A stretch of DNA of 64,000 nucleotides, taken from positions 1 through 64,000 of the forward strand of contig NZ_FOIQ01000006.1 of NCBI RefSeq assembly GCF_900110895.1, read 5' to 3'. The translations under genes were made by a program, and so were the position numbers. Positions 46,235 to 54,728 of the stretch are shown one piece after another. The stretch's first letter is position 1, and each line of letters opens with the position of its first letter. The notes beneath the pieces are model-generated. The model made no database searches. It was not told where the DNA came from and saw only the letters and a list, made by a program, of their open reading frames with translations. This stretch comes from Prevotella aff. ruminicola Tc2-24. GTDB taxonomy: Bacteria; Bacteroidota; Bacteroidia; Bacteroidales; Bacteroidaceae.

Positions 46235-46272
46235 GATTGAGGGCGTTGGCATTGAATAATCTTTGTTCAAAT

Positions 46273-46303
46273 TGAAGTTTCCTTTGTCAAAACGGGAACT
46301 TCA
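46273..46303 (+). terminator. terminator after the sirtuin gene
   Basis: A 10-base-pair stem (TGAAGTTTCC / GGGAACTTCA, one G-T pair) with an 11-base loop, followed by TTTCTTTGTTTC. It lies 39 bases after the sirtuin stop. Confidence 0.6.
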
Positions 46304-46360
46304 TTTCTTTGTTTCTAAATATTTCATTTCCTTTGCAGTCGAATTATCAGACAACAGAAG

Positions 46361-47242
46361 ATGATGAGACCCATTCTGACGATCACAGGTAGCGACTCGA
46401 CGGGCGGCTCAGGCGTCCAGGCGGATATCAAGACGATCTCCGAGTTGGGCGGCTATGCCCTGTCGGCCATCACCTCGATCACCGTGCAGACGACGCTTGG
46501 CATCCAGCAGTTCTATGACATCCCTGCCACGATCGTGGAAAGGCAGATCGATGCTGTGATGAACGATTTCCAGCCCGAGGTCGTGAAGGTAGGACTGATC
46601 CGCAGACGCGACACGCTCGATGTGGTGGTCGAGGCCCTGCGGAAGTACCGTCCACGCCACGTCGTGCTCGATGCCGTAGTGCTGTCGTCAAGAGGCGACA
46701 CCCTCATCAGTCACGACATGCAGGAGGCTATCAGAAACGAGCTGTTGCCGCTCTGTACGCTGGTTGTCAAGAAAGACGAAGGCTCCATGCACGGATTAGC
46801 CAACCGCTATGCCAGTGCCGTGGCCGTCTTTCTCAGTCAGGGGGCGAAGTCCGACGAGGCCAAGTCAAAGGCTAAGGCGTACATCAACACCCAAGTGGCC
46901 AGAGCCGCCGACTTACAGGGGCGTAGCAGTGAGCTCTACAACGAGTTCCTCGATGCCGTGACCGAGCACCACCGCAAGGCCAGCGACGTCCGTTTCTATG
47001 CCGACCTTCTAAATGTCAGCAGCCGTTATCTGGCACAGGTGACACGCCGCATCTCGGGCAAGGCGCCGAAGACCATCATCGATGATTACCTGACGCATGA
47101 AATTGAACGACAGTTGAAGTCAACAGACCACACGGTACAGGAGACCGCCTATCTTTTCGGTTTCTCCTCGCAGGCCCACTTCACCAAGTTCTTCAAGAAG
47201 CAGAAAGGTATCAGTCCGACAGCATTCAGGAAACAGAAATAA
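46361..47242 (+). CDS. degenerate ThiD/PdxK-like kinase domain fused to an AraC-type DNA-binding domain
   Basis: A 293-residue fusion. Residues 1-180 resemble the ribokinase-like HMP/pyridoxal kinase fold: [19 protein letters not shown] near 7-25 and [13 protein letters not shown] near 101-113. After [14 protein letters not shown] it jumps to a C-terminal helix pair; the middle (about 70 residues) is missing, and the catalytic HGTGC-type loop reads HGLANRY. Kinase activity is therefore unlikely. Residues about 205-293 are an AraC helix-turn-helix pair ([31 protein letters not shown]). Next to pdxS and pdxT (13 bases away), it is best explained as a B6-vitamer-sensing activator of PLP synthesis; a thiamine precursor is the alternative ligand. 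Confidence 0.8.
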
Positions 47243-47255
47243 GAACAAAGAAAAA

Positions 47256-48149
47256 ATGGAACAGAAAAAACAAGATTCAAAACAGAGAGCAAAACTCAAC
47301 CGTGAACTGGCCCAGATGCTGAAGGGCGGTGTGATCATGGACGTGACAACCCCCGAGCAGGCTAAGATTGCCGAGGCCGCAGGTGCCTGTGCCGTGATGG
47401 CCCTAGAGCGTATCCCTGCCGATATCCGCGCCGCTGGAGGCGTATCCAGGATGAGTGATCCGAAGATGATACGCGGCATCCAGGAGGCCGTGAGCATTCC
47501 CGTGATGGCCAAGTGCCGTATCGGTCACATCGCCGAGGCGCAGATTCTCCAAGCCATCGAGATCGACTATATCGACGAGAGCGAAGTACTCTCACCCGCC
47601 GACAATATCTACCATATCGACAAGACAAAGTTTGACGTACCCTTCGTCTGTGGCGCCAAGAATCTGGGCGAGGCCCTTCGCCGTATCGCCGAGGGTGCCA
47701 CAATGATCCGCACAAAGGGAGAGCCTGGCACTGGCGACGTGGTGCAGGCAGTGAGCCATATGCGTCTGATGCAGAGCGAGATCCGTCGTCTCGTCTCGAT
47801 GAGCGAGGATGAGCTCTATGAGGCCGCCAAGCAGTTACAGGCTCCATATGAACTGGTACGGTATGTGCATGAAAACGGGAAGCTGCCCGTCGTGAACTTC
47901 GCTGCTGGTGGTGTGGCCACCCCTGCCGACGCAGCCCTGATGATGCAGCTTGGCGCCGAGGGCGTGTTCGTCGGTAGCGGCATCTTCAAGAGCGGTAATC
48001 CTGCCAAGCGTGCTGCCGCCATCGTCAAGGCTGTCACCAACTATCAGGATGCCAAGATGCTGGCAGAGCTCTCCGAAGACCTCGGTGAGGCCATGGTGGG
48101 AATCAATGAGCAGGAGATTGAACTGCTGATGGCAGAACGAGGAAAGTAA
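47256..48149 (+). CDS. pdxS: pyridoxal 5'-phosphate synthase lyase subunit PdxS
   Basis: Makes PLP from ribose 5-phosphate, glyceraldehyde 3-phosphate and ammonia supplied by PdxT. The 297-residue protein has the (beta/alpha)8 pattern with the active-site lysines Lys86 ([10 protein letters not shown]) and Lys154 ([10 protein letters not shown]), and the phosphate loop [14 protein letters not shown]. It lies between the AraC-like fusion gene and pdxT (4 bases away), forming a compact vitamin B6 operon. Confidence 0.97.
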
Positions 48150-48153
48150 GACG

Positions 48154-48705
48154 ATGAGAATAGCCGTTCTAGCATTACAAGGAGCATTTGCCGAACACGA
48201 GCAGATGCTCCATCGTTTAGGCGTCGACACCTTCGAGGTACGGCAGTTCGCCGACTGGCAACAGCCCAAAGACGGACTGATCATCCCTGGAGGCGAGTCA
48301 ACCACCCAGTCCAAGCTCCTGCACGAGCTCGGTCTGTTCGAGCCTATCCGCAAAGACATCCTCGCAGGTCTGCCAGTCTTCGGCACTTGCGCAGGCCTGA
48401 TCCTCCTGTCGCCGATGCACCTCGACACGATGGCCATCGATGTGCAGCGCAACGCCTACGGTCGTCAACTCGGCAGCTTCCACGCCACTGCTCCTGTAGC
48501 AGGTATCGGCGATGATGTGCCCATGACCTTCATCCGCGCCCCTTACATCAACCAGGTCCTATCGCCCGAGTGTGAGGTACTCGCCCAGGTCGACGGCCAT
48601 ATCGTCGCTGCCCGCCAAGGTCGGCAGCTCGTCACCGCCTTCCATCCCGAGCTCGACGACGACACCCGCATCCACGAGCTCTTCCTCTCTACCGTGACCG
48701 CCTGA
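48154..48705 (+). CDS. pdxT: pyridoxal 5'-phosphate synthase glutaminase subunit PdxT
   Basis: Class I glutaminase that feeds ammonia to PdxS. The 183-residue protein shows the substrate loop IPGGESTTQ, nucleophile Cys79 in FGTCAGL and the His164-Glu166 pair in FHPEL. Length and order match the usual pdxST pair. No terminator immediately follows on the plus strand; the next structure is the hairpin at 48770-48816, oriented for the opposite strand but able to stop both. Confidence 0.97.
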   Translation: MRIAVLALQGAFAEHEQMLHRLGVDTFEVRQFADWQQPKDGLIIPGGESTTQSKLLHELGLFEPIRKDILAGLPVFGTCAGLILLSPMHLDTMAIDVQRNAYGRQLGSFHATAPVAGIGDDVPMTFIRAPYINQVLSPECEVLAQVDGHIVAARQGRQLVTAFHPELDDDTRIHELFLSTVTA

Positions 48706-48820: not shown

Positions 48821-49297
48821 TTATCGATTCATCTCGTAATCACCAAGCAGACTACGGAGTGATTCCGCATAATCGAATTGGCTGTCGTCATCATAGACTT
48901 CATCTTCCTTATTCTTAACCAGCTCATATTCCCTGTCATTGCGGATTCTTCCACGCTTAAGGATCTTCTGTATCTCATCCTTTTCGGCTGCGGCTACATC
49001 CACGAGGCTGTATTTGAACTTCTCGGTCAGAATCTGATTCAACTTATCCATTAATGAATCTGGGAGATACTCTTCTCGGATCATCCAATTCATTTCTTTA
49101 TATAGTATGCGCATTCTTTTAATATCTAACTTACTGTCTAGTTCTTCTGTAATTACTCTTTCTATTTCCTTTAGCATATCAGTCATCTCGGGATGTAAGT
49201 TTATCAAAAAATTATAGATAGTCATACACCACTCCCTGAGTGTTGCATAATCAGCTGTCTTATCTAACGCTAATAATTTCTTACTCATATCATTCAT
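48821..49297 (-). CDS. probable immunity protein of the GIY-YIG toxin tip (paralogue 1)
   Basis: A 158-residue soluble, acidic, helical protein not recognised as a known family. It is a clear paralogue of 52572-53036: the last 75 residues are nearly identical (for example LMDKLNQILTEKFKY and QKILKRGRIRND), while the middle, residues about 25-75, differs. It begins directly after the stop of the GIY-YIG toxin tip, the standard place for a cognate immunity gene. A variable middle between constant ends suits toxin-specific recognition. Alternative start: ATG at 49288. Function is inferred from position. Confidence 0.65.
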   Translation of the reverse strand: MNDMSKKLLALDKTADYATLREWCMTIYNFLINLHPEMTDMLKEIERVITEELDSKLDIKRMRILYKEMNWMIREEYLPDSLMDKLNQILTEKFKYSLVDVAAAEKDEIQKILKRGRIRNDREYELVKNKEDEVYDDDSQFDYAESLRSLLGDYEMNR

Positions 49298-49813
49298 TTA
49301 ATAACCAGTATATGGAGCGATGTTGCCAAAAAAACTATTTGAGATATTGTGAAATAACCTTCCTGCCGGATTGTATTTACTAACGCCTCTTATAGCATTT
49401 CCTACTTTTGGGCTTCCAACGCCTCCGTGAAAATCAATCAATTGCTGTTCTCTCCCCCTAATAGCATAATACGAACCGACTCCTTGCGCATAGACATCTA
49501 TCTTGGGGTTTTTATAACCAAATTTCTTTGCCATATGATGCCCACGGAATCGTTTCATCATCACTTTCTCCGGGGAGCCAAAACCACTTGTCCGTCCAAC
49601 ATATATTTTACCGTTAGGCCCCTCCAAGGTATAGGTCAAATATACTCTTTGTGTAAGATCATACCCTGCTGCTATAGCTAATGCCCCAACGCCAACGATA
49701 TCTCCTATTGGTAAAGGTCCGTCCGACGCTGACGCGACAAGGGCTATACCTGCGGCCGCTTTCCAAGGATCATCATCTCCACCTCCATCGTGCATCATGT
49801 CATTGAACATCAT
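49298..49813 (-). CDS. orphan Rhs-type toxin tip with GIY-YIG nuclease-like domain
   Basis: A 171-residue frame. Its first part (from the open sequence before the ATG, up to 49954, through about residue 45) is the linker of an Rhs/YD-repeat protein; the same linker recurs at 52223-52440. The C-terminal part looks like a GIY-YIG nuclease: LTYTLEG, GKIYVGRTSGFG, an arginine in MKRFRGHH and a catalytic-type Glu in GREQQLIDFHGG. The Rhs core that should deliver it is not in the window, so this is a displaced tip that can be used after recombination. The immunity-like gene follows directly. Without a delivery domain it may be silent. Confidence 0.7.
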   Translation of the reverse strand: MMFNDMMHDGGGDDDPWKAAAGIALVASASDGPLPIGDIVGVGALAIAAGYDLTQRVYLTYTLEGPNGKIYVGRTSGFGSPEKVMMKRFRGHHMAKKFGYKNPKIDVYAQGVGSYYAIRGREQQLIDFHGGVGSPKVGNAIRGVSKYNPAGRLFHNISNSFFGNIAPYTGY

Positions 49814-52571: not shown

Positions 52572-53036
52572 CTATCGATTCATCTCGTAATCACCAAGCA
52601 GACTACGGAGTGATTCCGCATAATCGAATTGGCTGTCGTCATCGTAGATCTCCTCTTCCTTATTCTTGACCAATTCAAATTCCCTGTCATTGCGGATTCT
52701 CCCACGCTTAAGGATCTTCTGTATCTCATCCTTTTCGGCAGCGGCTACATCCACGAGGTTGTATTTGAATTTCTCGGTCAGAATCTGATTCAACTTATCC
52801 ATTAATGGATCGGGGAGATACATCTCTCGGACCATCAGATTCATCTCTCTATACATGGACCTCATATATCTCATGCTTTGTTTCTTGTCTATTCTATCAA
52901 TAGCAACTTTCATCCCATTAACGAATTCAAGCATTTCTGGAGATATTATCACGAGAAACTCCAATATTGTCATGCACCACTCTCTGAGTGTTGCATAATC
53001 TGCAGTCTTATCCAACGTCAATAATTTCTTACTCAT
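52572..53036 (-). CDS. probable immunity protein (paralogue 2)
   Basis: A 154-residue protein with the same first 25 residues (LDKTADYATLREWCMTI) and nearly the same last 75 residues as the protein at 48821-49297, but a different middle (about 25-70). It follows the remnant of a GIY-YIG tip by 12 bases. With its toxin gone it may act as an orphan immunity gene that protects against related strains. Function is inferred from the paralogue and context. Confidence 0.62.
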   Translation of the reverse strand: MSKKLLTLDKTADYATLREWCMTILEFLVIISPEMLEFVNGMKVAIDRIDKKQSMRYMRSMYREMNLMVREMYLPDPLMDKLNQILTEKFKYNLVDVAAAEKDEIQKILKRGRIRNDREFELVKNKEEEIYDDDSQFDYAESLRSLLGDYEMNR

Positions 53037-53831: not shown

Positions 53832-54728
53832 TTAATACAGTCTGTTCTTAAGAACCTCTGTACACTGTTCAAGCATCTGGATGAAAGCCCGTGTGGAGTT
53901 TTTCATATAACCGTCGCGGAGCACATGGATACAGCCCTCCATCCTGGACGACGGCACGTTGATTGGGACGGCACGAAGGCCCGTCTCGTCGATGATGGTC
54001 GCCTCGGCGAGCACCGTGACGAACTTCGTCTGACGGACCAGCTTCAAGAGCAGCGACACGTTGTTGATCTCTGCCTTGACATTATAATGGTGGTCTGTAT
54101 GCAGAAGCACCTGATCGAAGGCATGGCGGGCCTGCAGGCCCTTGGCAGGCAGGGCGAAGCAGTAGCGCTCCAGCTCGTCGAGGGTCACCTCCTGCTTGGC
54201 CGCCAGCGGATGGTGCTCATTAACGATCGCCGCCAGACGGTTGTCGAACAACAGTCGGCTCTCGATATGCTCGTTGTGCTCCGTCGGCTTGAAGGCCACC
54301 ACGAAGTCGAGCTCATGGCGCTGCAGTCGCTCTATCAGGTCTGTCATCGACGCATAGAACACGTTGAGCTTCACCTTGGGGTATTTCTTCAGGAAGTCGA
54401 TCATCGTCTCCGAGATCATACTGCTGAACGAATAGGTGACGCCGATATTCAGCTCGCCCGTCAGCATGTTCTTAAGCTCCTGCATCCTCAGGAAACAGTT
54501 GTCCACCTTATACACACTCTCACGGGCCAGCGGCAGGAGCATCCTGCCCGCCTCGGTGAGCAGCACCTCATGACTGTTGCGGATGAACAGTTGCTGGTCC
54601 AGCTCACGCTCCAGATTCAGGATCTGTTGCGAGAGCGTGCTCTGGGTGATAAACAGTTCTTTCGAGGCCACCGAGAAATTGAGCGTCTCGGATAGCCTGA
54701 GGAAATACCTCAGTTGTCGCAGTTCCAT
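53832..54728 (-). CDS. LysR family transcriptional regulator under a cobalamin riboswitch leader
   Basis: A 298-residue LysR-type regulator: winged helix-turn-helix at the N-terminus (LRQLRYFLRLSETLNFSVAS, STLSQQILNLERELDQQLF) and a periplasmic-binding-like effector domain (about 90-295). The paired redox cysteines of OxyR are not evident, so a peroxide sensor is unlikely. The mRNA leader holds a B12 riboswitch and a 20-codon reading frame ending 3 bases before this ATG. The target genes are unknown; it may control cobalamin-dependent or cobalamin-replaceable functions. Confidence 0.87.
   Translation of the reverse strand: MELRQLRYFLRLSETLNFSVASKELFITQSTLSQQILNLERELDQQLFIRNSHEVLLTEAGRMLLPLARESVYKVDNCFLRMQELKNMLTGELNIGVTYSFSSMISETMIDFLKKYPKVKLNVFYASMTDLIERLQRHELDFVVAFKPTEHNEHIESRLLFDNRLAAIVNEHHPLAAKQEVTLDELERYCFALPAKGLQARHAFDQVLLHTDHHYNVKAEINNVSLLLKLVRQTKFVTVLAEATIIDETGLRAVPINVPSSRMEGCIHVLRDGYMKNSTRAFIQMLEQCTEVLKNRLY

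Follow-up and report, generated by a model that had tools for sequence, protein, structure and literature searches.

A catalytically dead ThiD kinase fused to an AraC-type DNA-binding domain, proposed as a vitamin B6-responsive regulator of pdxST in Bacteroidales

What is the role of a kinase-like protein with a DNA-binding domain that is encoded directly ahead of the genes for PLP synthase? The locus lies in a 64,000-nucleotide stretch of DNA from Prevotella aff. ruminicola Tc2-24 (the window), in which an intact open reading frame of 293 residues is followed by pdxS and then pdxT (Table 1). The distance from its stop to the pdxS start is 13 bp, exactly as given in an earlier note on this DNA, which had read the protein as a broken vitamin kinase turned transcription factor that senses a B6 vitamer or HMP. 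Here we describe its origin, its relatives and its predicted DNA site, and we conclude that it very probably acts as a vitamin B6 sensor and switch that has not been described before.

Table 1. Features of the fusion gene, its upstream region and the pdxST genes in the window
Feature	Position	Strand	Evidence
Predicted operator TCTTTGTTCAAATTGAAGTTTCCTTTGTCAAAACGGGAACTTCA, half-sites TTGT.CAAA / TTGTCAAA 21 bp apart	46260..46303	+	EM motif
Predicted Bacteroidota-type promoter: -33-like TTTC/TTTG (46304-46311), -7-like TTCCTTTG (46328-46335)	46304..46335	+	Spacing conservation
Dead-ThiD/AraC fusion, proposed B6-responsive pdxST regulator	46361..47242	+	Pfam, NCBIfam, PDB sequence and fold searches, relatives
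ThiD substrate-binding lobe, residues 5-136	46373..46768	+	Alignment of 92 fusions and 20 ThiDs; dN/dS
HGLAN, relic of the catalytic HGTGC loop, with Asn in place of the catalytic Cys	46790..46804	+	Alignment of 92 fusions and 20 ThiDs
AraC-type double HTH DNA-binding domain, residues 213-292	46997..47236	+	PF12833, PF00165
pdxS, PLP synthase subunit	47256..48149	+	PRK04180 and TIGR00343 above their cut-offs
pdxT, glutaminase subunit	48154..48705	+	TIGR03800 above its cut-off

The union of a kinase-like and an AraC domain in one protein is borne out by Pfam. Residues 12-136 align with positions 1-124 of the 246 in PF08543 (Phos_pyr_kin, E 7.5e-44), and residues 213-292 are matched by PF12833 (HTH_18, E 4e-20, 72.3 bits against a cut-off of 33.6), with PF00165 (HTH_AraC) also above its cut-off (E 1.8e-9, 37.9 against 26.6 bits). 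The fold had been described as ThiD/PdxK-like, of which the first half stands and the second does not: the top named kinase model in NCBIfam is ThiD (TIGR00097, 143.9 bits, under its cut-off of 204.95) and not PdxK, the closest PDB sequence relative of the N-terminal part is ThiD, and ThiD structures top the fold search with an AlphaFold2 model (mean pLDDT 86.8), the structure-prediction check that had been proposed. The sensor part of the fusion is thus derived from ThiD rather than PdxK. The fusion is dispensable as an enzyme, since elsewhere the genome encodes an intact ThiD beside thiE and thiH homologues (L001), as well as ThiC and a distinct PdxK-like kinase (L003).

The alignment supports the view that the fusion is catalytically dead, as had been suggested, and all 92 relatives point the same way. 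Of the HGTGC loop, previously taken as lost, the window protein keeps a relic, HGLAN, in which His and Gly persist while Thr, the second Gly and the catalytic Cys are gone. That cysteine (Cys213 in the E. coli ThiD numbering used here unless stated otherwise) is found in 20 of 20 ThiDs and in no fusion, where it is replaced by Asn (66/92), Gly (16/92) or Ser (10/92). The TPN motif, T137-P138-N139, is likewise lost, and neither GxGC nor TPN occurs in any of the 92. From the TPN position to HGTGC there are 8 residues in the window protein versus 66-85 in ThiDs; about 64-66 central residues are missing, close to the 70 or so estimated before, and the window clade retains 8 of about 72 residues in this part. 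Fusions of 355-395 residues keep the full C-lobe, with HG[IVLA]G[GS] or a similar sequence replacing HGTGC, and the model of the H. buccalis fusion matches whole ThiD structures in the fold search. Inactivation therefore most likely preceded truncation of the ATP lobe.

All 92 fusions share D13, G19, D23, T42, K77, G79, H209 and G210, and Q44 is present in 91. Fusion-specific residues include T10, I49 and R82, the last of which arose in the fusions and has been retained in all members except one (91/92). In the numbering of the window protein the pocket residues are D12, S17, G18, D22, T41, Q43, K76, G78 and L79, together with the family-specific R81; the place of R81 between strand and helix, on the substrate side of the predicted models, leads us to guess that it could act as a phosphate ligand. 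For the kinase lobe, dN ranges from 0.10 to 0.29 and dS from 0.9 up to saturation, and pairs with unsaturated dS give a dN/dS of about 0.05-0.15. The lobe is under strong purifying selection, and these ratios, together with the invariant residues, rule out a decaying pseudogene.

Searches of relatives returned at least 92 fusions of the same architecture, nearly all of them linked to pdxS. The next gene on the same strand is pdxS in 77 of the 92 (within about 200 bp in 71 of those), and pdxS is nearby on the opposite strand in two; thirteen have no pdxS in the examined stretch, with pdxS 2.4 kb away in two, elsewhere in the genome in nine, and absent in two. In a 201-genome sample of the family, pdxS is present in 39 genomes and the fusion in at least 32, all among those 39, and no fusion is among the matches listed for the 162 genomes without pdxS, which may conceal a few remote fusions. 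Among the matches listed for the 201 genomes, co-occurrence of fusion and pdxS has a Fisher p of about 1e-30, which rules out a chance gene neighbourhood, and 7 of the 39 pdxS genomes lack the fusion. In other Bacteroidales families, four of five examined fusion loci either share an operon with pdxS or are divergent from it. In a kinase-lobe tree, obtained by a short search over 132 columns and unreliable in its inner forks, 62 fusions form one clade (SH-aLRT 99), which supports a single origin of the family.

In the seven pdxS genomes without the fusion (G013, G025, G051, G140, G154, G168 and G196) pdxS itself has diverged further (82-84% identical), and a phosphoenolpyruvate carboxykinase-like gene is found near pdxS in three of those of their loci that were read. 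Two related genomes, G203 and G205 (loci L056 and L058), have kept the fusion and its site and have no pdxS; the next downstream gene is receiver-like. G197 (C27 and C50) carries two fusions, each accompanied by a separate site and pdxS, and G257 also has two, one of them not adjoining pdxS (locus L242).

An EM search of 77 non-redundant upstream regions identified a 44-bp motif of 36 bits in 55 of them, with a log-likelihood of 1141 versus 140 for shuffled sequences. The motif has an internal period of 21 bp, that is, it is a direct repeat of two half-sites, and 21 bp is the spacing known for AraC. One copy is found in the window, and a scan with a sequence-only covariance model detects a single strong site in the whole genome (43.9 bits; next-best 14.3). 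A wider regulon was rejected for the window genome, which has no second strong site. When 22 relatives were searched with the same model, the best site was usually the sole one above noise; the L077 genome has two, and no site was found in the L051 genome. Across the 201 genomes, 16 of 21 sites, the best 15 included, are located at fusion or pdxS loci, and five weak ones (20.7-22.3 bits) are located away from them. The weak matches come from the fusion-less genomes G032, G177, G059, G090 and G105 (L184 and L186-L189), and those of G032 and G177 are alike in score and in the part of the site that they cover. Deep-branching fusions (the P. disiens group, L097, L099, L103 and L106) have no site by this EM-derived model.

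The position of the site relative to the two genes is informative. At eight loci the fusion and pdxS are separated by a gap, and it is there that the site lies. In Segatella copri and its relatives, where pdxS is remote from the fusion, the site precedes the remote pdxS (18-43 bits); it also precedes pdxS in G183 and G169, where the fusion is convergent; and a weaker variant (11-12 bits) precedes pdxS in G166 and G194. Where the two are separated, the site tracks pdxS and not the regulator gene, as expected of a trans-acting pdxST regulator. The survey of linkage that the earlier note had called for is strongly positive. In 50 of 54 regions the site is followed, after 24-25 bp, by a -7-like TTTG box, and in the window the predicted operator abuts the predicted promoter, whose -33/-7 consensus we take to be of the Bacteroidota type. 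Placement of the site just upstream of the -33 element would correspond to an activator-like geometry of the AraC type.

Rfam detected no riboswitch for pdxST, and riboswitch control was dropped as an explanation; no sigma-70 promoter was found ahead of the fusion gene. Two other features of the window were recorded. A cobalamin riboswitch (RF00174, 54788-54972, minus strand, 74.2 bits in Rfam) is positioned 59 nt before a LysR-type regulator gene (53832-54728, minus strand), an unusual target for a B12 riboswitch. Paralogous small proteins at 48821-49297 and 52572-53036, near a GIY-YIG-like ORF, form a group with 49298-49813 (all minus strand) that resembles an effector-immunity arrangement.

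HMP-phosphate, which ThiD handles, is nearly isosteric with PLP, and the fold matches of the fusion models include 4ywr, a ThiD-family structure with a pyridoxal compound that is presumably pyridoxal phosphate. Judged from sequence, PLP is most likely the ligand of the fusion. The earlier note had also allowed for HMP, and a fusion that senses HMP or HMP-phosphate would tie PLP synthesis to the level of a thiamine precursor, HMP being an antagonist of PLP enzymes. The sensor comes from ThiD, the near-universal Q44 probably contacts HMP in ThiD, and ThiC, ThiD and a thiE homologue are all encoded in the window genome, which would suit such a role. However, ThiC is missing in 19 of the 38 fusion genomes tested, and in 18 of these 19 the dead fusion is the only strong ThiD-family protein; 11 of those 18 are isolates. 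Sensing of HMP is weakened by these genomes, and we consider it very unlikely. Seven of the 11 isolates also have no homologue of the window genome's PdxK (pyridoxal kinase). With no salvage kinase evident there, PLP made by PdxST would be the natural signal; those isolates may have a salvage kinase of another family. The Q44 position is Gln in the fusions and Met in the ThiD-type pyridoxal kinases of B. subtilis and S. aureus (the query sequence is confirmed by its full-length match to 2i5b), and retention of Q44 would count against a PLP-switched activator. The same applies to L056 and L058, which lack pdxS, to the site-less deep branches, and to the seven pdxS genomes without a fusion.

Three further explanations concern the kinase remnant and the sign of control. 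The remnant could be a mere dimerisation scaffold, with activation of pdxST constitutive or governed by another signal: the N-lobe is all that remains of the kinase in the window clade, AraC factors usually require a dimerisation domain, and the PLP ligand is a prediction. A scaffold would not, however, account well for pocket as well as core residues that are invariant across widely differing members, nor for the gain and retention of R82, and we regard this explanation as unlikely. Repression of pdxST with PLP as co-repressor would agree equally with the linkage and with the presence of a site, which suit either sign of control. The location just upstream of -33 and at a fixed distance from the -7 box is instead the usual place of an AraC-type activator, which makes a repressor quite improbable; from this geometry alone we infer activation. 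That the protein is a working kinase and its linkage to pdxST incidental is scarcely credible: the N-lobe is well conserved and annotation pipelines would probably call the fusion ThiD, but GxGC and TPN are absent from every member, the window protein also has no ATP lobe, and the genome has both an intact ThiD and a PdxK-like protein.

The comparative evidence, that is, the architecture, catalytic death, selection, linkage, pdxS-tracking site and fixed site-promoter spacing read from these sequences, leads us to propose the following mechanism. An ancestral Bacteroidales ThiD would have been duplicated, gained an AraC-type domain for DNA binding, and lost both TPN and the catalytic Cys, with its substrate pocket retained as a sensor; in the window lineage the idle ATP-binding lobe would have been deleted afterwards. 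As a dimer or pair, the fusion would bind the 21-bp direct repeat that lies immediately ahead of the -33 element, and would switch on the operon with pdxST, which here includes the fusion gene itself. A B6 vitamer, most likely PLP, would enter the old HMP-phosphate pocket, and activation would be lost upon binding when PLP is plentiful. We hold it probable that the fusion is such a dedicated, single-target AraC-type activator of PLP synthesis, switched by PLP and built from a dead ThiD. In any event, it represents a real, widespread and conserved regulator family, one that very probably controls pdxST and most likely responds to PLP.

If correct, this model would reveal a so far undescribed system of B6 regulation in Bacteroidales, and would give abundant gut and rumen bacteria a regulator with an operator, a promoter geometry and one target. 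Intermediates on the way from enzyme to sensor would be preserved as full-lobe dead and truncated forms within one clade. The fusions are liable to annotation as kinases, by which HMP kinase would be wrongly credited to genomes without ThiC and a catalytic ThiD. A literature search, with subscription journals outside its coverage, returned no description of a dead-ThiD/AraC fusion. A survey of MocR regulators lists few in Bacteroidetes (PMC5320631), a later B6 survey omitted regulators (PMC9997740), and the literature searched seems to leave the control of B6 in Bacteroidales uncharted.

The closest functional parallel would be PdxR (MocR/GntR) of Gram-positives, which controls pdxST from an adjoining gene through an enzyme-derived sensor and direct-repeat operators, as is proposed for the fusion. 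Apo-PdxR activates pdxST and PLP acts as anti-activator (PMC5320631), the same logic that we propose for the fusion. PdxR consists, however, of a GntR winged helix and an aminotransferase-like domain, neither of which was found in the fusion by Pfam and NCBIfam scans, and the combination of a ThiD-derived domain with an AraC HTH is of unrelated origin, so the fusion would be a different solution, as had been anticipated. We lean, somewhat, towards regarding it as a separate evolutionary route to PLP sensing, in which an HMP-phosphate pocket became a PLP receptor in an AraC-type activator of one target operon and the ATP-binding lobe was lost stepwise after the death of the enzyme. Conversion of a vitamin-pathway enzyme domain into a regulator of vitamin genes is also described for archaeal ThiR (Rodionov et al. 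2017, as cited in PMC6593275); as far as that citing account goes, ThiR derives from thiamine phosphate synthase (ThiN), controls thiamine genes, and differs in kingdom, fold and vitamin, and a Pfam scan of the fusion detected no ThiN domain. In BzdR, a shikimate kinase domain that is no longer active serves a transcription factor as its effector domain (PMC3602430), but the kinase fold and domain order are different, the protein senses benzoyl-CoA and controls benzoate degradation, and a shikimate-kinase-like C-terminal domain is absent from the fusion in the Pfam scan. None of PdxR, BzdR and ThiR is a relative of the fusion. Its DNA-binding half resembles AraC/XylS proteins in the C-terminal double HTH and the predicted 21-bp direct-repeat site near the promoter, with a kinase relic as sensor rather than a cupin or other usual sensor domain. 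The source of that sensor is ThiD, the HMP-P kinase (COG0351), with its ThiD2/PdxK offshoot; the fusion shares their fold and substrate pocket, and differs in having lost the catalytic Cys, TPN and, in the window protein, the ATP lobe, and in having gained a DNA-binding domain.
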